Shown piece by piece: positions 4,447-60,115 of a DNA stretch of 64,000 bases (position 1 is its first letter; each line of letters starts with the position of its first letter). Source of the DNA: Haliclystus octoradiatus (Eukaryota; Cnidaria; Staurozoa; Stauromedusae; Haliclystidae); assembly GCA_916610825.1 (NCBI GenBank), contig OU744452.1, positions 18,439,103-18,503,102 on the forward strand. The letters are read 5' to 3'. The notes below the pieces were generated by a model. The model did not search any database, had not been told where the DNA came from, and saw only the letters and a list, made by a program, of their open reading frames with translations. The translations under genes were made by a program, and so were the position numbers.

Positions 4447-5091
4447 TGTAGCAAATGACAGCGATAAAAAAAAACACGGGATTTCGCAACGTATCATATA
4501 TACACAATACACAATATCATATCTCCAATGTATCATCAGGTATCTATATATACAAATTAAAAAATTACAAATCTGTAGAGTTTGAGTTTACAAAGGAAAT
4601 TATCAAATACAATTACACGGAAACTAAACAAACAACCGGGATTTTATAGAATCCGATTGCGTGTTGATTGTTGGCTTGGTCCGCCTGTTGCAAGCATTTC
4701 ATAAATAAGACAATCAGTTTTGTTTTTGCATTTATTCAAAACACAGAAAGTGTGATAACTGTTCCTGTCACTATCACGGTTTAACTGCCCGGAACAGTCA
4801 TCACACTTTCCGTGCGTTGAATAAATGCAAAAACAAAACTGATTATCTTATTTATGAAATGCTTGCAATAAGGCGGATCAAGCCAACACTCAACACGCAG
4901 TCAGATTCTATAAAATACCGGTTGTTTGTTTAATTTGCGTGTAATTGTATTTAATAATTTCCTTTGTAAATTCAAACTCTATATATTTGTAATTTTTTAT
5001 ATTGTATTTATATACCTGATGATGCCATGAAGATATGATTTGGCGAAACGTTGTGAAATCCCGCGCTTTTTATCCATGTCATTTGTTACAA
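4447..5091. repeat. Long fold-back element (about 300-bp arms)
   Basis: Left arm 4447 to about 4765 and right arm about 4795 to 5091 are reverse complements, by eye about 85% identical, with a spacer of roughly 30 bp. The outer ends read TGTAGCAAATGAC and its near-complement. The right arm carries CTGATGATGCC ... GGCGAAACG near 5010-5045, a motif resembling hammerhead/Penelope terminal sequences but with an extra base in the core. Between this element and 7477 I see no gene. Confidence 0.6.
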
Positions 5092-5689: not shown

Positions 5690-5940
5690 GCAGCTGTATA
5701 GGGTAAAACAGCCTTGCCCATTGAACAATGAATGCCTCACATAAAGCCTTGTTTACAATGCCAAAGCTACAACCACAGAAGATCAGGAAGGTCAAAATTA
5801 CATCGGTTTGACGGAAGGAACCTTCAAACAAAGATACACGCAGCATATTATGCCATCAAAATACAGAAAATATATTAACAGCACACAACTTTAGAATACA
5901 TTTGGAGACTAAAAGATAGGAAAGAAAACTACCTTCAAAA
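5690..5940 (+). pseudogene. Penelope-like element GIY-YIG endonuclease fragment (broken)
   Basis: Plus-strand translation gives PCPLNNECLT, then YIGLTEGTFKQRYTQH and KYRKYINSTQL, the conserved core of the GIY-YIG endonuclease of Penelope-like retroelements. It is clearly related to the copy at 18685-19121. In-frame stops follow NECLT and NSTQL, and the zinc-finger-like C-terminal part is lost, so it is a dead fragment. It lies 600 bp downstream of the fold-back element at 4447-5091. Confidence 0.75.
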
Positions 5941-12908: not shown

Positions 12909-14408
12909 CTGCAATTATTTGAAAATGTAAGGAAAATAAATTTTGCACTTAGCCAGCGAGATTTGTCAATAAGAGACAGTGAAAATTTCTTCGTCAGAAT
13001 TTGGCCATATATTAGCTTCAACCAATCAATGTCTAAAGCGCACGTGAAATAATGATTTAACCAATCAGATTACTTATGCGATGTTTTTCCAAGTGTGAGA
13101 AAAACAATAGCCAATTTAAATCAGAGTTTTGAATGAGGATATATTACGTGATCATGCATTTATTCGTTTTTGAGAGCACTTTGCATGAAAACTGCTGTAA
13201 ATAGTTTATTGTCGAACAAGACTATAAGATTAAAAAAGGCTACACCAGTAATAATTTAAAACTGTTTCCAGAATTGTTAACAAATAAAGAAGAGCGAAAA
13301 GAATTCTGTAATACTTATTTCTCATCATTTGGATCTGCGTAAAACTTCTAAACATATAAGCAATTAAGGCTATAGTATATTTAATCAGAAATATACTATA
13401 ATGGTGTTGAACATAATAGTAGCATATGGTAATTGCAGTTTTAAAAGATACTGAAGACAAAAAAGTTATTTGATAAGTTTATGCAAGTTATTGTGATTAA
13501 TTTATGCAAACATTGTTTGTATGTTTTCAAATCAAAACAATCACATCAAACCAGTAAATGAACCATGATCAAATTTGCTAAATCATGTTATAGACTGTCA
13601 AAATATTTCTCTAATTTTCATGCTTTAAAGATATTATTTTGGTAGCTCTGTTTAAGTACTTATTATATTTTTAGTTAGTATAATATAATGAAAAAATATC
13701 CTCTTCGTGAAACATTTCAATAACAAAGTCATAGGAAAAACAGTAATTTACATTAGTGATTAAATTGATCATGTACACCATTTAAATTGTCGAAACGTCA
13801 TTCGCGTCAGTGTCACTGATGAAAATAATATACAGTTATGTATAATGGCTTAATATGTATTGAGATAGTATAAGTATAATCGTTCCTTTGTATCATAAAA
13901 CTCATTCTCTCGCAAATTGTCGCTCGTTGGCGCTTTATGATACGTCACACTCGTGAATAAAAAGTCTACAAGCTCTTCCCTAGCCTAACTCCATAAGGCC
14001 CATTATTCCGCTATGGTCTATACGAAACGGCTCTGGTAAAGTGTAGTACAGGGAGTCAGGGGGAATGTGGCACAGGTCTAGCTCTTCCCATCAAGTAATC
14101 TCTCTTTATATTACATAGCTTAAAAAGCCATTGCTCTTCACTATGGTTGCTATACGTTGTCTACATACATTCATTCGACGATAATGCTGTCAGATCAAAT
14201 AATGTATACACCAGCAATTCAACTGATTTCGATCGATTTTCTATTGATTTCATTTTAATCACAAAAATAAGGGAAAAAGCCTAATTGATTCTGTTTTACT
14301 ATTATTAAGAAGGGCAGGTACACGCAAAATTAAATTCAATTCATTTCATTCAACGGTGACATATTTTATCTATCGAGAGCAAAGCCATACAATAATATAA
14401 CGAAAAGA
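12909..14408. other. Gene-free AT-rich interval
   Basis: No ORF with recognisable homology. Contains an ATATACTATAATGG-rich stretch near 13380 and a segment near 13970-14100 (ACTCCATAAGGCCC) that resembles scattered sequence near 49730 and 58865, possibly another dispersed repeat. Otherwise I see nothing. Confidence 0.5.
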
Positions 14409-14546
14409 TGCCAGCTATGTCTGGCAGAAAAATATCATATCATTTGTTCCAAAAAAGCATTACTTAACAAAAGATCTGAGTTAATTTCAAAATGTAGGCA
14501 CGAGAATAAATTTTATTTTACTAATTATAAATCGACTAAAACATAA
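14409..14546 (+). pseudogene. Penelope-like element, C-terminal end of endonuclease domain
   Basis: The plus strand reads C-x2-CLAEKYHIICSKK, then LLNKRSELISKCRHENKF, ending at a stop at 14544-14546. This is the conserved C-terminal tail after the GIY-YIG domain of Penelope-like elements and matches the tail of the 18685-19121 copy. The upstream part is missing, so it is a truncated relic just 3' of the LINE at 14704-17844. Confidence 0.7.
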
Positions 14547-14703: not shown

Positions 14704-17700
14704 TTATAGGAATGTGCCGTCCCTCTTACGCCTTACATATTTGCTACATAAAGAACGCCACAAAACACGGTCAGACATAGCTGACAAAGAAACTTTTAAA
14801 TAACACAATTCACGATACAAAACATTATGAAAAGATACTACTCTACCATAGCCCCGTCGAAGCATCTCCTTCGGTTGCCAATGAAGGATGTCAAGCAGCG
14901 GTTGAGGGGCATACGTCTTTGATCTTTCGATGTGACCTAAAAAAGACATCTGACGTTGGTGAGCAATAGCAGAGGCAGAAGGGGAAAGTTTCCTAAGTTT
15001 AGCAGTAGACAGTAAGTTGGGCCAATGTACTCCTAAAGCATGCCGAAGCATGGCGTCATAAGCTGAGTCAAGTCGGGTCAATAGTGAGGTTGATAGAACC
15101 CACGTTTCAGAAGCATATAATAGAACAGGTTCTATCGTGTGTCTGAACAGTCTTAACTTAACGTCAGTGTTGACATCGGACGCCCAGAATTTATTCAGAC
15201 CTCTAATGGCTGCCCAAGCCTGGCCTCTACGTTGTGTTAAATCATCTGAAGAAGATGGAAGTACAGAACCTAGGTACTTGAACGAATCTACACGTTCTAT
15301 GTCACCATTAGATGTAGCAAGGTGTGCCTGTTTTATGCCTAAAGCAATAAATTTCGTCTTAGTCGTGTTAATTGTCAAGCCTACCGTTTTACCAACCCGT
15401 TCAACTTCATCAAGAAGCTGTTGTGCTTCAGATATGCTATTTGTTAAGATAGCAATATCGTCAACGAATGAGAGGTCCGATACGCTGCGCTCTGGATGAC
15501 GTGAAGACCTACGACGATCAAGGATAAAACCGGAAGAGTCAGGACATGAAATACGAAAAACATAATCGATAAATAGTGTAAATAAAAAAGGGGACAATGT
15601 GTCACCCTGTAGTACGCCACAAGCTGTCGGGAAATCATCAGTATCACCATAGTGAGTTCTAACAAAAGCCGAAGTAGAAGAATAAAAGGACATAATAGCA
15701 TCGATAAGAACAATAGGTACATTATAGAAATCTAATATTTCTGGGATTCTGCATCTTAACACAGAGTCAAAGGCCTTTTTGAAGTCAATAAAAATTGCAA
15801 CAATGTCTTTTTGATGAGTCCTACAGCCTTCTAACAATATCCTAGCTGATAGAATTTGGCCTAAGGTTGACCGGCTATTCCTGCCACCATTTTGATTGTA
15901 TCTTAAATATGGGTCAATTACTGACGCCAGCCTTTTATGTAGAATCTTATTATTAGCTTTTCCTGCAGTACAACTTAAAGTGATACCCCTCTGTTGGTCT
16001 AGGTTTCTAGACGTGTTCTTGTTGACGGTGATGACAGCAGATCTTCGCCATTGACCCGGTACTTGTTGCTCCCCTGACAAAACGGCATTTATGATGGTAA
16101 GTAGCTCATTTTGTACAAGAGGTTCTCGAAGTGCCAGGGTGGGGATTCCATCTGGTCCAGGAGACGCAAGGGGTTTCATAGAAAATAGAATAGAGCATAA
16201 TTCGTCATTAGTAACAGGAGAAGTATTATAATTGGACATATCAGGAGGGGAGAAGTTAGGCGGTGGAGCTAATTTATTTAACGATAGTAGACAGGATGGG
16301 GGATTATATAAATCATAAAAATAATTACGAATCATACTATTTGCCTCGACAGAATCATACGCTTCAACTAATAAGGGCTTGTGGGATGGGTTCTTAAGAC
16401 GCCTTATCTCTTTCCATGCTATACAATGCTTATTACTATTACTAGCCGTTTTTACCGCTAAAATTATAGCGTTTAATTCACGCTCGATTAGGGCGTTATG
16501 AGCGGCAGCGAGATCTATTGTTTTTTGATCAACAATAGATTGTAAAAGACTGATATTGTGTATAGTAGGAGAACAATCACGTAATTGTTTTTTGGCAAGT
16601 TTCAATTCATATCTTACCTGTGTGATCATTGCGTCACTGTCCCAAGAGACGCGTGACCATTGTCTTTTCTTCCGCGGCAAAACGGTCTCGGCTGCTTTGA
16701 TGATGGCTGAGGAAAGAATGGAGAAATCACCTCTTGTGGGTTGTCCAACAAGAGAATTCTCAAGACAGTCGTTAAACGCTTGTGAAAACTCTGCCAGACT
16801 TTCCCAACAAAGGGATGACCCCGCCTTTCCTTTGCAGTACCGGATGCGTTGTTTCATGCAAGAGAAAACAAGGCGATGATCAGATGGAATAGCAAATGGT
16901 GCTATAGTATCACAATCGTAAAATAAACGTGGACAATTAGTGAGAATATAATCAAGACGTTCTTTCCGGCCTTTCGGACCAAAGAAAGTAGCACGTCTTG
17001 ACAGAGGTTTACGATACAAAGAATTTAACGGAGTAAGGTCATAGATATTAATAAGATCAATTAAATAAGGGGAATTATCATTTAAATTACGTCCTACAGG
17101 GTTTAATGACAAGGGGTAACACGCATTAAAATCACCACACAACATAATAGCATCACGGGATGGTATTTTAACTAAGATTGAAGATAACTGAGCATAGAAA
17201 AGGGAGGCCTCGATCTGTCTGACAGCAGTGGGAGAGTAAACAGAGAAAACATGTACGATACGATCAAATAATTTAACAGACAATTCTAAAATACTGGATG
17301 AATGAGACTTTACACGAACATAACGAACATCAACACACGGATTACACATAAAACCTACACCACCAACACCATAACATTCAGCAGACGATGTAATAAATGT
17401 ACATTTATTATCTAAATCAACATAACGAATAGGTTCATCGTGAATAATACGATGTTCCTGAACAGCAACAAACAAAAAATTTAACTTACGTGTGAGTGTA
17501 GCTAACTCTTTCTGTCGCCACGGACACTTCAGGGTTCTGGAGTTGAACGTAGCAATACGATTAGGCGTAGAGGGTCTTTTCGCTGAAGGAGATAATGTGC
17601 TATCTCCATTTGGAACTCGATTGCGAGATCGCAGTTCTGATCCAATAAAACTTGAAGCCTTCGGTTTGTGACGATTTCTGTTTCTATTACGATGTTCGGA

Positions 17701-17844
17701 GTTACGCTTTCTTCTTGCAGCAAGTGCTTTCTGAGAACGGAAACCTCGTCGACAAAACCTTGGCTTAAGTTTTAATTGGGGAGGTGGAATGATGGTAATT
17801 TTCTGGCTACCGCAGCAACTAATAAAAGTGCGCGTAAAGGCCAA
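14704..17844 (-). CDS. Intact non-LTR retrotransposon (LINE) ORF: AP-endonuclease + reverse transcriptase
   Basis: A single open frame of 1046 codons. Residues about 90-330 form an APE-type endonuclease (IATFNSRTL start, VAVQEHR with the catalytic Glu, GDFNACYP, and SDHRLVF at the end). Residues about 530-850 form the reverse transcriptase with IFIDFKKAFDSV (first catalytic Asp), GVLQGDTLSPFLF, and FVDDIAIL with the paired catalytic Asp. The basic N-terminus (residues 25-65) is rich in Arg/Lys. The absence of stops or frameshifts over 3.1 kb suggests recent insertion. The N-(S/V)RTL endonuclease start and microsatellite tail recall the RTE group, but I cannot assign the clade firmly. This is a mobile-element gene, not a host gene. 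Confidence 0.95.
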   Translation of the reverse strand: MAFTRTFISCCGSQKITIIPPPQLKLKPRFCRRGFRSQKALAARRKRNSEHRNRNRNRHKPKASSFIGSELRSRNRVPNGDSTLSPSAKRPSTPNRIATFNSRTLKCPWRQKELATLTRKLNFLFVAVQEHRIIHDEPIRYVDLDNKCTFITSSAECYGVGGVGFMCNPCVDVRYVRVKSHSSSILELSVKLFDRIVHVFSVYSPTAVRQIEASLFYAQLSSILVKIPSRDAIMLCGDFNACYPLSLNPVGRNLNDNSPYLIDLINIYDLTPLNSLYRKPLSRRATFFGPKGRKERLDYILTNCPRLFYDCDTIAPFAIPSDHRLVFSCMKQRIRYCKGKAGSSLCWESLAEFSQAFNDCLENSLVGQPTRGDFSILSSAIIKAAETVLPRKKRQWSRVSWDSDAMITQVRYELKLAKKQLRDCSPTIHNISLLQSIVDQKTIDLAAAHNALIERELNAIILAVKTASNSNKHCIAWKEIRRLKNPSHKPLLVEAYDSVEANSMIRNYFYDLYNPPSCLLSLNKLAPPPNFSPPDMSNYNTSPVTNDELCSILFSMKPLASPGPDGIPTLALREPLVQNELLTIINAVLSGEQQVPGQWRRSAVITVNKNTSRNLDQQRGITLSCTAGKANNKILHKRLASVIDPYLRYNQNGGRNSRSTLGQILSARILLEGCRTHQKDIVAIFIDFKKAFDSVLRCRIPEILDFYNVPIVLIDAIMSFYSSTSAFVRTHYGDTDDFPTACGVLQGDTLSPFLFTLFIDYVFRISCPDSSGFILDRRRSSRHPERSVSDLSFVDDIAILTNSISEAQQLLDEVERVGKTVGLTINTTKTKFIALGIKQAHLATSNGDIERVDSFKYLGSVLPSSSDDLTQRRGQAWAAIRGLNKFWASDVNTDVKLRLFRHTIEPVLLYASETWVLSTSLLTRLDSAYDAMLRHALGVHWPNLLSTAKLRKLSPSASAIAHQRQMSFLGHIERSKTYAPQPLLDILHWQPKEMLRRGYGRVVSFHNVLYRELCYLKVSLSAMSDRVLWRSLCSKYVRRKRDGTFL

Positions 17845-17954
17845 TAAAACTTCAAACAGAAACCGCGCGCCGAAACACGTCCGTTCTTGATGAAAGCCTC
17901 ACCTCAATGATGCACCATGTATGGTACCATGTATGTTTTTTATTATCTAGTTTT

Positions 17955-17999
17955 AACTGTCTGATGATCGCAATAAAGCGTGAAACTTCAAGTTACAGT
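17955..17999 (+). ncRNA. Hammerhead ribozyme core, type I (outer left)
   Basis: CTGATGA at 17961-17967; stem II CGC (17969-17971)/GCG (17978-17980) with AATAAA loop, closed by a T68-T81 mismatch; GAAA at 17982-17985; stem III ACTT/AAGT around a single C; cleavage triplet GTT ending 17994; stem I ACTGT (17956-17960) pairs with ACAGT (17995-17999). All conserved core bases are present. The T-T mismatch next to the core recurs in sibling copies and may lower activity. The very short stem III is typical of mobile-element type I hammerheads thought to act as dimers. Confidence 0.7.
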
Positions 18000-18206
18000 A
18001 ACAAAATGTGTAGTCCTTGACTCCTCTAGTTATATATTTACAGCTCTGTCAACAGACATTGAGCACTGTTTTACTGCTATTGAATAATATTTATTATTAT
18101 TATATATATATATATATTAATAAAGTAATTGTGTGGGCAAAACATCAATTTGAGTGCTCAATGTTAAAAGCAGAGCAATATAAATAGTATATCAAAGATC
18201 ACGAGT

Positions 18207-18252
18207 TTATTCCGTTACTCTGAGTTTCGCGTAGAGACGCTCTTCAGACTGT
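18207..18252 (-). ncRNA. Hammerhead ribozyme core, type I (inner left, minus strand)
   Basis: Minus strand: CTGAAGA (18247-18241), stem II GCGT-CTCT-ACGC, GAAA (18228-18225), stem III ACTC/GAGT with one-base loop, cleavage triplet GTA, then ACGG. Stem I is ACAGT with ACGG, with one mismatch. It is the reverse-strand counterpart of the core at 18276-18315 in the other arm of the palindrome. Confidence 0.7.
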
Positions 18253-18275
18253 TTTATTAAAATTTTTTAATAAAA

Positions 18276-18315
18276 CCGTCTGAAGAGCGTCTTTACGCGA
18301 AACTCAGAGTAACGG
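18276..18315 (+). ncRNA. Hammerhead ribozyme core, type I (inner right), canonical
   Basis: Every element fits the consensus. Stem I CCGT (18276-18279) pairs with ACGG (18312-18315). CTGAAGA is at 18280-18286 (position 7 is free in the CUGANGA consensus). Stem II GCGT/ACGC (18287-18290/18295-18298) has a CTTT loop and the normal G10.1-C11.1 pair. GAAA is at 18299-18302. Stem III pairs A302-T310, C303-G309 and T304-A308. The cleavage triplet GTA ends at 18311. The tiny stem III loop implies action as a dimer or only weakly in cis. Confidence 0.8.
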
Positions 18316-18456
18316 AATAAACTCCTGATCTTTGATCTACTATATATATATATATATATTAGATATTATCTAATAGCAAAAAATTGTGCTCGATATCATT
18401 TGACAGAGCTAAATATAATAAAATAATAAAAGGAATCAAAGACTAGACATTCATAA

Positions 18457-18497
18457 TTGTTACTAATAGTTTCATGCTTACGCAATCATCAGACAAA
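18457..18497 (-). ncRNA. Hammerhead ribozyme core, type I (outer right, minus strand)
   Basis: Minus strand: CTGATGA (18492-18486), stem II TGC/GCA with GTAA loop and the family's T-T mismatch, GAAA (18473-18470), stem III ACTA/TAGT around one T, cleavage triplet GTA ending 18461, stem I TTGT/ACAA. Compared with the outer-left copy, stems I, II and III have each changed on both sides while keeping pairing, which supports selection on the RNA fold. Confidence 0.7.
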
Positions 18498-18684
18498 TAA
18501 ACTAATTAATGAAAAACATACAGTTCCGCCTATATCGATTTACAAACCTACAGTTATTGTTTAACAGAACAAAGGATTTTGATGCTAGAAATAAATTGCA
18601 TTGTTGTTATTTCCTATTATCGCTTGGTTAGTTAGCACTGCATAAATAAATTAGAAAATATATATTATGTTTTCACGGATTTAT

Positions 18685-19121
18685 AATTAGTTAGGTAAAA
18701 TTTATTCTCATGTCTACATTTGGAAATGAGTTCAGACTTTTTATTCAATAGATCATCTTTAGTGCAAATGATGTGGTACTTTTCAATTAGGCATAGATGG
18801 CATTTTTTATTTATTGCTGTATGCTTTCGCTTTAGCTAGGCAGGTCCATTCAATTTTGTAGTTTTCTTTCCTATCTTTTAGTCTCCAAATGTATTTCGAA
18901 AGTTGTGTGCTGTTAATATATTTTCTGTGTTTGAATGACATCATATGCTGAGTGTATCTTTGTTTGAAGGTTCCCTCCGTCAAACAGATGTAATTTTGAC
19001 CTTCCTGATCTTCTGTCGTAGTAACTCTTGCCTTGTAAACAAGGCTTTCTGTGAGGCATTCATTGTTAAATGGGCAAGGCCGTTTTACCCTACAGTTGCA
19101 TTGTTTAGTATTCAGAGGCAC
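18685..19121 (-). pseudogene. Penelope-like element GIY-YIG endonuclease domain (truncated, frameshifted)
   Basis: Minus-strand translation from 19121: C-N-C-x4-PCPFNNECLTESLVYKA, then NYICLTEGTFKQRYTQH (the Y-I-G glycine is Cys here), KYINSTQLSKYIWRLKD, and EWTCLAKAKAYSN. A one-base frameshift near 18800 leads into CHLCLIEKYHIIC and ELISKCRHENKFYL. This is the GIY-YIG/zinc-binding C-terminal part of a Penelope-like retroelement. The reverse transcriptase is absent: the element is cut off at 19122 by the CR1-like LINE. The glycine change and frameshift mean it is inactive. Confidence 0.8.
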
Positions 19122-42060: not shown

Positions 42061-43375
42061 AAGGACTAAATTCATAATATTTGAGTCAACCTCTTTAAAC
42101 ATTTATACATGTTTGCATTTGTAAACAAATAAGTATACTTTAAGGTGTCTTTTAAATGTTTTATTTATAATGTATATACATGAAGGGAGCTTTAAATTCT
42201 TTACTGTTGACTGAGTGAGTAAATAAAATGTTATTAAAAAAAATACAAATAACTTGTTTTTCATTTGATTTTAATATTTACAAAAGAATTGAATGGAATT
42301 CTCTCGAAAACTTACATATTATCGTAACTATACTATATGAAATAATGTAATGTTGATGACATTTATAGATAAACGCGCTATCATCAGTCGGGTCTTAAAG
42401 ATATATCTATATTTTGTTTCTGTGGTGAGGAATATAAAAGATTAGTTAAAACCACACAGGAGTTAAGTCTTACCAGCAACACACAAACCAACGATTCGTA
42501 ATATCAGCTATACCTATATATAGCAAGACCGATAGCTCCTTGGGTTAGGGAGCGTGCATAATCTATAAGTGCGTTTTTGTAATCAGATGAACTTTTCTTC
42601 TCTAATGGATCTTACAAGATTTAAATGCTTGTGTAGTGCAGTATAACGAAATACACATTATTTGAAGGGAATTATTATTACAAGCGCATATACGGAGGGA
42701 AATGTTTTAAGTCTAATCAGAATGTCTGACCTTTTTCTCCCCTGATCTGTATATACAAGCTGTGGGAGATATTATCCAGACTAACAGCCTACAAAGGTCT
42801 CCACTTTAGCTAGCCTTTTAAATATGATACTATAGGCGACATATTACTTTCATTGCTACTATTTAAGCCACAAAATACGGTCAATTGTTATAACTATTAA
42901 AATTATCCATAAAAACGTTTATACATGACTTGCCAAATAATACCGTGATAATGCCCCGAAGGCCTGAATGGTGAAATATGAGGATTTCATTGCGGGCGTG
43001 TCCAAACCCAGAACTCATCATAAACTACACATATTTCTGAAACTGTTGACAACATCTATTGTTCAAGACGTACTTCTGATATTCCTCGAAATTATCAACC
43101 ACAGGGGGGGGGGTAACTTCAAATGGTTGGTATACGGGGACGTGCCAATTATTTTGGGTACCTTTCATGCAGTCTTTGAAATTTTTTTTTGTGGTATCTA
43201 TTTCATAATTTTCAAAATATTCGGGGTATTGTTTTTCAATGAGCACTAAAATGTTGTAAAAACCCACGAAATTGTAATCAATTTTCAAATATGCGTCAAT
43301 AATATACACATGTATGTAAGGGTGCTTAATGTTTGTTTAAGACAGAGCATAATATAGAATTGACACAAAGATGAA
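42061..43375. other. Interval without a supported gene
   Basis: Short overlapping frames on both strands at 42968-43309 (including an 8-G run near 43105) have no recognisable domain. No other structure seen. Confidence 0.4.
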
Positions 43376-43379
43376 AAGC

Positions 43380-43490
43380 CTTACTCGGAGTTGTACGCCT
43401 TTATTTTGCGATCATCAGACGGTTTCCAAGATCCCCGATCATCAGACGATCATTGAAAAGGCTTTTCCTCATCTTTGTGTCAATTCTACA
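43380..43490. repeat. Decayed hammerhead-like motif in a short fold-back
   Basis: The minus strand from 43418 reads CTGATGATCGC ... GCGTACAACTCCGAGTAAGG, where ACAA replaces GAAA. The outer sequence ATGAAAAGCC/GGCTTTTC and CATCTTTGTGTCAATTCTA is repeated inverted at 43346-43390 and 43455-43490. Confidence 0.5.
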
Positions 43491-45017: not shown

Positions 45018-48000
45018 ATGATACTGTGCGGTCGTCAACCTTTACTTTACATTCTTGCAATAATTGTTTTCGGCCCTTGGTGTGCTATTTGTGAATTAAA
45101 TCGCATTGGTTTAGGTGAGTTGGCTCTATATATCGCGAACAATACCCATGTTCTCAGATATTTTATACATTCATTCGTGACGCCCTTTCATTTAATTTAA
45201 TGTACTCATTGATTGAGCATTGCAAGATCTTGTATACATATATTTTACATATTCTTTCTCAAGAAACTTATTATTCATTGTTGAGAAATTTCCAATAATA
45301 TCGTCTACTCAGATAAAATAGTATTACTTTCAATATGAACATTGATTACCATCATATATACGTGATGGTAAACGCTAATATAGGTATAGGGAGACGTAAT
45401 TTTAAGTATAATCACGATTACGATTTCCAAAGCCCTTTGAACTATAAACTCCTTTATATAATTATAAAATTATATAATATTGAGTTGAACCTTGATTGTT
45501 ATTATTTTATTACAGTCAAACTGAACTAAATTTGTTCTTACAATATGGTCCAAGCTCAACTAATTCTCCTTCATTTTTCACACATTTGAGAATCAGTGTT
45601 CTTATTTTGCCACCATATAGCATGCTGACAGGAACCATCCTGATTTACAAGATTTTAAAATATTTATAATTAACTAATTCGAATGATTTTGACGAAAATT
45701 ACACTATACGACTAATACTGTAAATTCACTAAACGGGTTCTTTTAAAAAGGGTGTATGTAGGTCCAATAGATACAGTTTTACAATGAAGTTAATTTCGTA
45801 ATTCCCTTTTCTTGGGAACTCCAAGTCCCAGTTGTAAAAGCACCAAAATATCAGGCGATTTGTATCAAGATAGCATGCTCTTATCGGAATCACATTCCTG
45901 CGGGTTAACTTCACCACGTATATATTAGACCGCAATTCCGAGTAATGCTGACATATGCAATGATATTAATATCGTTAATATATAGGAAAAAGTTTGATGG
46001 TACATTTGTTTTTCGATAAGAAATATATAATAATCGCCGTTGATAGCATAGTTTAGACCAAAGGGTATGATTTACTGTATAATTATGTTGGCGCTTGAAC
46101 ATAGAAATTGTGTCTAACTTCATGACAAAATATTAAATATAAAAATATTACTTGAAAGATATTCTTATAATGTATTTTTCTTTGCATGTATTTTTCTTTG
46201 TCAACTCAGATGGTAAATACAGGCATATATAGGTGCTATGTTACAATGATTAACGCACTGAAATATTATCTTATAATAATTAATGTAAAATGTAAATTTT
46301 AATTTTAATATTTGTTGAAAATGAATAAGTAATTATATCTTATATGATCTTGTAAATAAATACCTTTATAAAAATGAGCCCCATGATATATCCTGATTTA
46401 TGTACCAGAATATATGTATCCTATTATGTATGTGTTATATGTAAGTGTGTGTATTTTTCTTGCGCGATGGCTATTACAGACACATTTACATATACCGTAT
46501 ATATATATATACAGAGAGAAAGAGTCAAATATTACTCATTATTTATTGTTACTCAAGTTCTACGTATTTCACTGCGATTTTCAGACAGATTGAGTAAAAC
46601 GTCTTTCTGAAGATCGCAGTAAAATTCGTGAAACTTGAGTAACAGTAAAGAATGTGTAAATTTTTACTCTTTCACTATATATTATTTTTATTATTTATCG
46701 CTCTTTCAAATGAAAACATAGACATTTTACTTTTTTATTTTAACTTTTTTATTTACTTTGAATTTTCCTTCTCATTTGACAACTTTTATGTAAATTTGCT
46801 ACGAGAACAATAGGCCACCATAATAGACCACGATATGTTATCTGCCATTAGATAATCATAACTTTTAGTATGATAGGAGATACAGTTTATAGATATGGTA
46901 TTTATTAAGATACATGTTATAATGTGATAATCTGTTCTTAAATTTGGCAGAATTTTTGTCTCGATCTTAATATAAAGCTAATAAGGCTGTTAAAAATAAA
47001 GATGTGCAGTGTATATAAGCACAACCAAAATTTACATATTTTTGCTTTGTTTTTTTTTCCTTTTTTTGCATCCACGATGACGATTTGATTCATAAATTTC
47101 TATATAGGTGGAAAACAAAACTTTAGACAAATTTGCGGTGGAAAATTACAAGGCATACATGGCATGTTTCAAAGTCCATATTTTCCTGGTTCATTTGGTA
47201 GAAATATTTATTGCAAATGGGAAATCATTGTCCCTGAAAGATTCTATCAAGTAAATTTTTTCTTCGTATGGTTTGACGTTGGTACCGCAAAGAATTCAAA
47301 AAGAGAACAATGCCCTGATGATTATGTTCGGATTGAACAAGAATTTGATGGTTCTATGGAATTAGCAGGACAATACTGCGGTTTATTGAAATCATTTCGT
47401 GCTAAAGCAACATCACAAAAGGTTGAAATTGTATTAAGAGGATTTCGAAGAAGACGAAAAACAGGATTCCGCGTTGTGTGGTTTGCAACAAGAGGTAAGC
47501 CTTTTGTATGGCTCGCATATACGTTATGATGATTTTATTTTGTAAGACATTGTACAGTGTAACCCGCTTAAGTGCAATTCAAAATTGCCAACGGTTTTAA
47601 TTTCATATATCCGAATTTGCAGCTATCCGAAATTGTTTACCAAGGACTTGACCGGAAAATTGTTTAACGGGTTTCAAAGCCAGGTTGCAGGTAAGCGGGA
47701 ATTTCACTTATCCGAATTGCACATAAGCGGGTTACACTGTAGTTGCAAATATGTTGAATCTCAGTCTTGTTTTGTCTTTGTTTTGTCTTTACATTTATCA
47801 TTATTTTATATATTTAATTCCAGCCACATCTAAATTATACATTTGATATTTCTAATAAATACGGATGTGCAAATGGCTGAACACGTCCTATCATATGCAA
47901 AATGTGCCTGTTTATTGAGAGACGTGCATTTAAAACTTTTGTGACCTATAATTTCTACAAATGCTTTTTCTTATAGATTATTTGCAACAAACCATAATCC

Positions 48001-51000: not shown

Positions 51001-54000
51001 TTCGCTGTAGTGAACTTTTCGATATCCAGTATATACAACCTGTCGCGCAATTCAGAATTCTTTACTTTACAGATCTTATCTGAGGTTAGCAGTCCAATTC
51101 TTCAAGAACAATTATTTGATGGAATCCCTCCTCGGAGCTGACCAACTTGTGAAGTCGCCAATGGAATACGCTGATTGGTGGTTCAAGGTCTGCTAGTGAC
51201 TATTCCGAGAACGTGGTAGCATTGTCCACAAAAATGTTTCCGTCGAACCGGAGTCGAACCAGTGACCTAAGGATTTCTGTGTTACAGCCGCTACAGTCCT
51301 CCGCTCTACCAACTGAGCTATCGACGGATATTTTGACCATCTCCATGTGCAATAGCTTAATCAAATAATTCCACTGCAAGCAAATCTGAAGTCTGTGTAG
51401 AAATATAATCCTTCAGAAAATTATTCAATCACAGTGATAGATTGTATAAAATTAAATGGTAAGGCGAAATAGTCTTATTGCTTACAAAATAATGTGGACC
51501 GATTATTCCATAATGGCACTTCAACCACTTTCAGCGCTGTTCAGCAGAAGAAGGGATAAAATGAGGAATTACTCTAAACCTATATTGCCATTGACACTTG
51601 GAAGTATGCCTTAATGTAATTTTCTCCTCCAAATATTTGTCTATATATTTCTCAAGCATAATTGTTGGTCAATAAAGAGAATGACTCGACGGCTTTGCTG
51701 TAAATTTGATCATGTTGAAACTCTGTGCCATTTTTTGAAAGTTATTAATCGACCGATTATTGATTATGTCAAAACAAGCCGGTTAATCGGTAAAACCGTT
51801 TATTTCTGATTAATACGGCTCATCTCTAACAATAACCTTGCTGAGTTAATATAATGTTGATTTTTTGTATAAAGCATATTTGATTTTGCTTCTAACCATA
51901 GGTTGCGGTGGTCTTCTATATGGAAAAACCAAAGGAACAATTAATACTCCAGGATACCCTCTTTTATTTCGTTCTCATCTACGTTGTCGCTGGATCATCA
52001 ATGCACCTTATAATGATTCAACTATTAAAATTCGTTTACTGCAATTTGAAAAGTCTAGTTGGCTAGATATGTGCAAGTAAGTTATAAAATTTAAGAACTA
52101 AAACGATTATCACTCATTATTATCATACCATTGTCAAACATTGGCAATAGTGCCCCAACTCTTGCTAAAGAGATGGCTCTAATTATTAAAGTTTATATTG
52201 ATGTAAGATTTACAACATTTTAAGAAAAACTGCAAAGAAATTGCATCAGATGTATAGCTTTAAATTCAGCCAAATCTAACCCATCAACGCTGTAGTTATA
52301 GTTATTACTATAGACTTCAACATGACTTGGTTTATTCAATAGAATGGAGAAAATGACAATAAAAGATGAAAACTCAAAAAAGATTGCAGAAGTTTGTGAT
52401 AATAGCGTTTCGAATGAACTGGAAATCAATAGTCGGAAAGCATCAATATATTTTCGTGGAGATGGCTTTCGAGGATTTGGATTCTTAGCTAAATGGAATG
52501 TAGAACATCAGCTTCAAAATATGAAAGGTTAGCATAAAGTATCCCTTTTCCAAAATCATTTTCATCATGCTTCCATGATTACTACTTGAGGAATGCTTGA
52601 TAACACTAGCGAAGTATTAGAAGACATGCGTGAATATTGAAATATTGAAAGAACAATGTTGTTTTCAGTGTATATGATTTCAAGTTTTTTTTAGTCCAAT
52701 GATCGTTGGTGGACTGCTCAACTTTCATATTTATTCATTTTAGGGATGATGTGTGGTAAAGCTGACTTCTATCACACTCCAACATCACGCAAAAGAAGAG
52801 TTGTTGGCGGGAATGAAGCAGAGAAGAATTTTTGGCCGTGGCTAGTGCAGGTAAAAAATATTTACTTTAAAGAAAGAGAATGCTCGCCTGTTCCACAATC
52901 AAACAATAACCACTGATGCAATATCTGCATATTGGATTGAGTCCTGTAATTTCTTGTTGTTGTGATTTTATAGTACAATAGTTATTGGCTGTGTCATGGC
53001 AGCTGACCAGCTGCTGAAGTCGAAATAGTTATCGTCGTCTAAAATGATATTAAATCATTGTGAGTAGTCTGAGTGCTGGGGGGTCGGATTACTCGTCTAT
53101 GCACACATGTTTGTGTTTGTCTCTCAATGTGTTTATGTCCTTCAACAAGCTTGCATTTGTGCTTATGGATTGACCATCACTTATCATATAGTTAACTGAA
53201 AATGGAATATTGCATTATACATGAAAGTATTCAATAATAAATTATTGGGTGTTCCTATAGCAATACATTCTAGATTCTACCAGAGCCTTGCCTTGTGTGC
53301 CGCTCTCAGCTCCAATTGGACAGATGCAATTCACGTGATTATATTGATTTCATTCCGTCAAACGCATGCTTGCGAAATTTGAACAAGTTCAAAAGCAAAA
53401 CCTCGTTTTCAATGGCATTAGAATGGCGATTTTTGAGCCCAAAAATTTGCGTCTCCCAACTCTTATAAATAGATGGATCTGGTTTCTACACATTGACCAA
53501 TAAATGTTTTTATTTCAAATCTCTACATAGGTTGTTGCAATACTATCAGAAATTGGAAACCAGAGATCATTAGTTCGATGCGGTGGTACTATCATATCAG
53601 ATCGCTGGATAATTACCGCAGCCCACTGTGTTGAGTTTAATTGGCCAGCATTACATTACCAAATAAGATTACCAACATATTCTACTAATTCTATTGGTGG
53701 CGATATGGTCGAAGTGGAATCATTAGTTATTCATCCTAAATATACTGGTGGCTTGTATCATGATATCGCATTGATTAAAACAAAGCGAGCGATTGATTTC
53801 GACTATTATCAGGTCAGTATGTTATATCTATATTCATTTCATTCATTCATTTTTTCTTTGTATAAAGTAAACCATAAGATGTAGTTTTTCACAGGTAAGC
53901 AAAGGGAAATTATATATTAATTTAATTTACACTGATTGGCAGAATTTACATTCAACAAAAAATATCTTATAGACAATTAGAGAGGTTGAAATGACAACGC

Positions 54001-60026: not shown

Positions 60027-60115
60027 TCCGTCGAACCGGAGTCGAACCAGTGACCTAAGGATTTCTGTGTTACAGCCGCTACAGTCCTCCGCTCTACCAA
60101 CTGAGCTATCGACGG
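60027..60115 (-). tRNA. tRNA-Tyr (GTA) with 16-nt intron, second copy
   Basis: Identical in sequence and intron to the gene at 51239-51327, as part of the tandem unit. It starts about 90 bp inside the duplication junction. Confidence 0.95.

Follow-up and report, generated by a model that had tools for sequence, protein, structure and literature searches.

The four hammerhead motifs found on both strands of one segment of the window (the whole 64-kb stretch of Haliclystus octoradiatus DNA analysed here) are assigned to pieces of Penelope-like elements (PLEs). We consider it probable that the locus consists of three PLE pieces placed at (TA)n, and that mirrored pairs such as the central one stem from two-ended priming of reverse transcription, with the two cDNAs joined at the ends that correspond to the RNA 5′ ends. 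The locus is a pile of insertions at (TA)n and not a four-ribozyme device, and its mirror-image layout looks like the scar of PLE insertion rather than a special arrangement. The same layout recurs in the genome with mostly different centres, and therefore marks insertion events instead of one inherited device.

Four hammerhead motifs in the window

The hammerhead cores lie where the earlier note had placed them, with CTGATGA at 17961 and CTGAAGA at 18280 on the plus strand and the minus-strand cores at 18492 and 18247; the claimed spacing of 319 bp for the plus pair and 245 bp for the minus pair is likewise correct. CTGANGA, stem II, GAAA, a 3-bp stem III and a GUH triplet were found in all four motifs, and the copy at 18207-18252 has the single stem I mismatch that had been described for it. 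A strict hammerhead descriptor recovered three of the four and missed this mismatched copy.

The earlier note had proposed a search with the Rfam models. At gathering threshold, the curated Rfam models gave no hammerhead in the 64-kb window, and thus none at any of the four cores; in permissive mode the sole hammerhead match was Hammerhead_HH9 at 17948-18015 (21.7 bits, cut-off 52). Because the Rfam models stayed below threshold, we built a genome-specific covariance model, R1, which was trained on 28 motifs from this genome with the window families A, C and D excluded. R1 recovered all four window motifs, with E values between 1.6e-15 and 2e-11, and its matches bear out the call of type I hammerheads with a very short stem III:

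17953..18002, plus strand: hammerhead C; R1 62.2 bits, E 1.6e-15; predicted cleavage after 17994
18208..18255, minus strand: hammerhead A-minus; R1 48.2 bits, E 2e-11; one stem I mismatch
18272..18319, plus strand: hammerhead A-plus; R1 53.6 bits, E 5.3e-13; predicted cleavage after 18311
18453..18500, minus strand: hammerhead D; R1 56.4 bits, E 7.8e-14; predicted cleavage after 18461

Minimum-energy folding of the isolated cores produced the full three-stem hammerhead in none of the four cases, and no core was clearly more stable than its shuffles (z of −0.73, −1.43, −1.03 and −0.19). R1 also matched two motifs of the same superfamily at 2848-2899 (−), found by the descriptor too, and 43375-43426 (−); four weaker matches in the window had E values of 0.008-0.1.

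Ribozyme fold and abundance across the genome

The core pattern has at least 6,019 matches in the 262-Mb genome (2834 and 3185 on the two strands), against 0 + 0 for the reversed control; this and the other genome-wide pattern counts are lower bounds. Pairing in the training alignment extended to 93.6% of cells, compared with 87.8% in shuffles, and double changes numbered 28, compared with 10.4 (0 of 500 shuffles as high in either case). The number of pairs with a double change, 5 versus 3.8 in shuffles (95 of 500 shuffles), was not decisive. When the structure was slid along the alignment, pairing dropped to 24-48%. The CUGANGA/GAAA/GUH core of type I hammerheads is here carried on three covarying helices, and this covariation shows past or present selection on the ribozyme fold in the source elements.

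In a type I hammerhead, positions 10.1 and 11.1 are expected to pair and so close the base of stem II, and U.U there is unusual. Among 25 representative hammerheads we found U.U in 17 and G-C in 4, so that the closed pair is absent from the majority, and U.U is kept across many families. In the window, the position is U.U (unpaired) in families C (17961) and D (18492) and G-C in family A. The many U.U families are natural variants whose activity would be worth measuring.

A different hammerhead type, with a longer stem I and a GUC site, occurs at 112-895 (−) of locus L014 and also in L023 and L056. The L014 motifs are spaced by 261 and 522 bp in a single direction, possibly as a true tandem retrozyme in the same genome.

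Layout of the locus

By its sequence, the locus is composed of three PLE pieces that abut at (TA)n: C on the plus strand, the head-to-head pair A, and D on the minus strand. From left to right the order is C with its tail, (TA)n, the tail of A, the mirrored pair A, (TA)n, the tail of D, hammerhead D and the ORF remnants of D. Besides the hammerheads, the following features were placed:

17923..18096, plus strand: piece C, a solo pseudo-LTR (pLTR)-like PLE end with box TGTATGTTTTTTATT, hammerhead, AU stretch and tail stem-loop (limits by eye)
18043..18066, plus strand: tail stem-loop box of C, GCTCTG...GAGCAC (tail pattern)
18101..18120, no strand: (TA)n tract separating C from A
18154..18176, minus strand: tail stem-loop box of the left arm of pair A (tail pattern)
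18178..18262, minus strand: left (tailed) arm of mirrored pair A (inverted repeat I1, 94% over 85 nt)
18265..18349, plus strand: right (tail-less) arm of mirrored pair A, which runs into (TA)n
18386..18409, minus strand: tail stem-loop box of piece D (tail pattern)
18508..18516, minus strand: initiator-like box TTTTTCATT of piece D (native stretch common to L005, L031 and L056)
18668..18829, minus strand: PLE-like ORF remnant, C-terminal end (54 aa, 63% identity to the L078 protein)
18813..19112, minus strand: PLE-like ORF remnant, zinc-knuckle and GIY-YIG-like part (100 aa, 67% identity to the L078 protein, other frame)

Piece C lacks a mirrored partner and shares its upstream stretch with L002 and L052. 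Piece D is the 3′ end of a 5′-truncated element, in which the hammerhead adjoins the ORF remnants. All four motifs had been taken for parts of one palindrome, but a true palindrome is confined to 18178-18349 (85-nt arms, 94% complementary); the outer hammerheads belong to two different families that are about 72% alike in inverted orientation. In an RNA running from 17995 to 18311 the stem I strands would be CCGU and ACAG, with one of four positions mismatched, and in the minus-strand equivalent two of four are mismatched. A transcript of the inner palindrome is predicted to fold as a single long hairpin of −129 kcal/mol, compared with only −10.9 for the isolated 48-nt core, and the ribozyme would therefore be buried. 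A microRNA-like hairpin was rejected, as the Rfam miRNA matches stem from the long inverted repeat and all lie below their cut-offs. A tail pattern of fixed length had no match in the window, which carries no evidential weight because tail length varies.

A second, older mirrored pair, detected by R1, occupies 46499-46691 of the window, with hammerheads at 46542-46592 (−) and 46599-46649 (+); it is bordered on its left by (TA)n, a tail-like stem-loop is present solely at its right side, and its arms have clearly diverged. The window also holds two tRNA genes, at 51239-51327 and 60027-60115 (−), which lie 8.8 kb apart, have identical scores and bear an insert in the anticodon region.

The element that carries the hammerheads

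Hammerheads of this kind sit in the pLTRs of tandem PLE-like elements of about 2.5 kb. The copies have in common a box like TGTATRTTTTTCATT and, 15-20 nt further on, the hammerhead. These are followed by some 60 nt containing an AU-rich stretch, and then by the tail stem-loop and (TA)n or (AAT)n. The full-element unit of about 2.5 kb has the box TTTTTCATT, 15-20 nt, the hammerhead, an AU-rich part of about 60 nt, the tail stem-loop and the ORF. The tail stem-loop, GCUC-UG...CA-UY-GAGC, has at least 2,992 matches in the genome and none for the reversed pattern. Its third inner pair is paired in 22 of 25 cases, against a shuffled mean of 16.2; the covariation is moderate, because the best shuffle reached 23.

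At locus L085 the block is present twice, 2,516 bp apart, each copy being followed by the same open frame, which is complete once (721 codons). The second half of this ORF gave 99 scored matches among those listed, several in tandem at 2516-2519 bp and some with a nearby inverted copy. Both the tandem organisation that forms pLTRs in PLEs (with the 2516-2519-bp period) and inverted head-to-head pLTRs with a tail on one inverted copy and an AT-rich target are thus present. At L037, L078 and L079, an inverted 3′ end is fused to a 5′-truncated sense copy of the ORF (by eye). The pointer of the earlier note to PLEs proved well aimed, given the ORF remnants beside hammerhead D and the tandem elements of about 2.5 kb.

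In Pfam searches, neither the reverse transcriptase (RT) nor the GIY-YIG model matched the ORF of the hammerhead-bearing element or its homologues; what we take to be its RT and GIY-YIG motifs were recognised by eye. A clear PLE of the same genome, L077, has RVT_1 and GIY-YIG above the Pfam cut-off, and a profile comparison with the L077 family gave a weak collinear match of 226 columns that starts at the YxDD motif and extends to the GIY-YIG-like end (P 0.008, probability 4.8%; 1 of 100 column-shuffled controls as high). PDB searches with the element protein returned nothing relevant, and a single-sequence structure model of the 100-aa window fragment was too poor to use (pLDDT 47). The hammerhead-bearing element is likely to be a PLE.

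L077 itself (C2:28184500-28192000) has a 769-aa ORF and direct end repeats, each with a hammerhead-like motif, and is followed by a near-identical copy of the 1046-aa LINE ORF found at 14704-17844 of the window. Further fragments of the two PLE protein families occur in the window at 5700-5891 (+), 14370-14543 (+), 4775-4930 (+), 4766-4647 (−) and 1138-1025 (−).

Mirrored pairs of element ends

Divergent hammerhead pairs with a short spacer gave at least 665 and 668 strand-wise matches genome-wide and none in the control; one palindrome can yield one to three such matches. Convergent pairs numbered at least 69 + 69 (control 6 + 6); among the matches listed, most of these join different families, often across (TA)n. 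In a less biased sample, 8 of 37 motifs (four palindromes) lay in a strong palindrome, and most motifs were single.

The tail follows a one-sided rule. Among 42 distinct palindromes (38 from loci chosen by similarity to the window and 4 from the pattern list; alignments scoring at least 80 kept, duplicate sequences removed), the tail was on the left only in 26, on the right only in 14 and on both sides in none; two had none by regular expression, and in these the tail was seen by eye on one side, mutated (L010) or cut off (L014). One family followed genome-wide gave 46 palindromes with 26 tail matches on 26 different palindromes, none being two-tailed, and 20 of the 46 had no tail by the strict pattern. 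Independence at the rate of these 26 tails would predict about 3.7 two-tailed palindromes; the count of 0/46 alone is suggestive, and that of 0/42 is stronger.

The arms also have preferred ends. We counted only those copies of six families whose upstream stretch is known (81 in total): the inner end lay within 4 nt of the A of CATT (the box) in 45 of 60 palindromic arms versus 5 of 21 single copies, 11 of the latter running through upstream of the box. Against a strict box rule, 15 of the 60 palindromic arms end elsewhere, and all seven family D arms stop 5-14 nt short. At the outer end, the tail-less arm of family-A pairs departs from the tailed arm at the junction of TATTTATAT and TGCTCT, beside (TA)n, in 24 of 25 pairs; this end is an AU-rich site adjoining the target tract. 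Five bases inside the departure point lies column 64. An A or C stands there in 9 of 25 tail-less arms, counting L026, in which the column already falls beyond the arm end, and none of the 25 tailed arms has either base; replacement of template by target primer sequence would leave such a pattern. Before column 64, there was no base that three or more arms of the 25 family-A pairs had on one side only. Their spacers, which form the centres, are distinct in 22 of 24 cases, where the tandem-duplicated L003 and L014 and the near-identical L021/L024 are not independent, as is true of the family-A-pair and arm-end counts as well. The distinct spacers and the lack of side-specific arm bases together indicate that the pairs were mostly made anew.

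Origin of the mirrored pairs

The arrangement of tails and arm ends would be produced as follows. The PLE endonuclease would cut both strands of an AT-rich target, and each target 3′ end would prime reverse transcription inside the element RNA, one start lying at the AU-rich site, immediately 5′ of the tail stem-loop, and the second on the far side of that stem-loop. With the hammerhead still uncleaved, each cDNA would be extended across it as far as the 5′ end of the RNA, close to the box, and the two would be joined there with small losses or additions. The identity of the box with the RNA 5′ end, the use of two RNA copies and this manner of joining are inferred. Hammerheads would stand on both strands because the same element end was copied twice. 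The copies contain the ribozyme sequence uncut; since cleavage would part the RT start from the RNA 5′ end, the RNAs copied would have been uncleaved (or religated).

In vitro, a Poseidon PLE protein cuts and extends both target strands, uses two neighbouring internal sites, one on either side of the 'tail', to begin reverse transcription, and can insert RNA that has not been processed, as described in the portion of the report available to us (PMC11167929). Set beside these data, two-ended priming would be the simplest account of the arm ends. Against it, the same portion describes a Poseidon RT start that has neither target homology nor a strand difference, unlike the AU/(TA)n match and the one-tail rule seen here (PMC11167929).

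Palindromes with short centres would also be expected if the cDNA of a PLE end (or an antisense RNA) folded back at its own end and was copied into its mirror image, and such self-priming on an antisense template is proposed for the head-to-head inverted pLTRs of Adineta vaga in the available part of that study (PMC3846280). For the present pairs we judge it improbable. The copied arm should then bear the tail too, whereas two tails were found in 0 of 42 palindromes, and it cannot exceed its template, yet the tail-less arm is 10 nt longer in L006:1878 and L015:1695. Near 1210-1260 of L037, moreover, the inverted piece has a hammerhead and the sense piece has none (by eye), and few arms are of very unequal length.

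Very unlikely, in our estimate, is a non-autonomous mirrored element, MITE- or SINE-like, in which one inherited palindromic unit uses the PLE machinery. It would account for hundreds of similar palindromes and for the identical centre of three family-A copies (L008, L009 and L014), but 22 of 24 family-A spacers differ, the arms of the 25 pairs have no side-specific bases, and the same ends occur on ORF-bearing copies. A MITE was rejected by the asymmetric tail and the continuity with the ORF. Four conserved-core motifs with covarying stems might be read as a working ribozyme device on two strands, or as a retrozyme-like unit, with transcripts that undergo cleavage at each end and then circularise; the earlier note had envisaged the release of a ribozyme-bounded RNA from either strand. 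This is the least credible reading and such release is not supported: three subfamilies meet at (TA)n, the outer and inner ribozymes differ in family and their stem I strands are mismatched, a single hairpin is the predicted fold of the inner palindrome, and the layout varies between loci.

Returning to two-ended priming, we would tentatively, and with slightly less than even confidence, go further and regard the mirrored solo ends as an in-vivo record of an asymmetric PLE complex. Such a complex would cut (TA)n on both strands and start once before the tail and once beyond it, on two RNAs with uncleaved hammerheads, the ends then being joined.

Comparison with known systems

The comparisons below refer to the available parts of the papers cited. 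The closest genomic likeness is with Penelope of Adineta vaga (PMC3846280), which has solo pLTRs, AT-rich targets and pLTRs inverted head to head, with palindromes where the inverted copies meet and a short tail on one of these copies. Unlike those described there, the pairs found here often have no ORF between them, occur in hundreds and bear hammerheads, and their arms obey the one-tail rule and mostly end at the initiator-like box (PMC3846280). The word 'hammerhead' does not occur in the A. vaga paper.

Poseidon of the green anole, studied in vitro (PMC11167929), likewise forms a tandem pLTR-ORF array whose pLTR contains a hammerhead. Both systems would have in common a pair of neighbouring internal RT starts that bracket the tail, with cutting and extension of both strands (PMC11167929). 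Poseidon starts reverse transcription inside the ORF, whereas the starts proposed here would lie between hammerhead and ORF (PMC11167929); one of them would fall, unlike in Poseidon, in an AU stretch resembling (TA)n, and a palindrome seems to use one start of each kind (PMC11167929). Insertion by Poseidon in vitro was independent of hammerhead cleavage (PMC11167929).

With the minimal type I hammerheads of PLEs (PMC7761336) the present motifs share the type I core, a reduced stem III, a location in the pLTR and thousands of copies per animal genome. They are set apart by a 3-bp stem III, by U.U at 10.1/11.1 in 17 of 25, and by window copies that fall below the Rfam cut-offs, including the gathering score for type I hammerheads. 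Animal retrozymes (PMC7229834) are similarly small, at a few hundred bp per repeat, and also carry type I hammerheads, but they are tandem direct repeats, whereas here we find single or mirrored ends of an ORF-bearing element. A retrozyme was rejected for these families, which show single or divergent units in place of short tandem direct repeats each with a hammerhead. The exception among the loci is L003 (C1:3017864-3021260), where mirrored units form a secondary tandem repeat of about 525 bp, possibly the birth of a satellite. Nor is there a viroid-like single inherited unit with both ribozymes, since the centres mostly differ and side-specific bases are absent.

Hammerheads in PLE pLTRs (PMC7761336), inverted pLTRs with palindromes and a tail (PMC3846280) and internal RT starts (PMC11167929) are in print. 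In literature mainly outside subscription journals, we found neither the one-tail rule nor a meeting point at the initiator-like box described, nor any mention of ORF-less mirrored hammerhead pairs in such numbers; part of this may be covered in the primary PLE-hammerhead papers. The part of the 2026 D. virilis paper available to us mentions neither pLTR nor hammerhead.

Implications

A locus with hammerheads on both strands is not necessarily a viroid-like or retrozyme device, which makes such loci a trap for ribozyme surveys. On the way in which PLEs insert, published work offers RT start sites from in-vitro experiments and, from genomes, inverted structures that are hard to explain. With hundreds of mirrored solo ends and thousands of single ones, a conserved tail stem-loop and a preferred meeting point, this genome makes the competing models of fold-back self-priming and two-ended priming testable by counting. 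The one-tail rule, if strict, would imply that each target strand takes one of the two RT starts.
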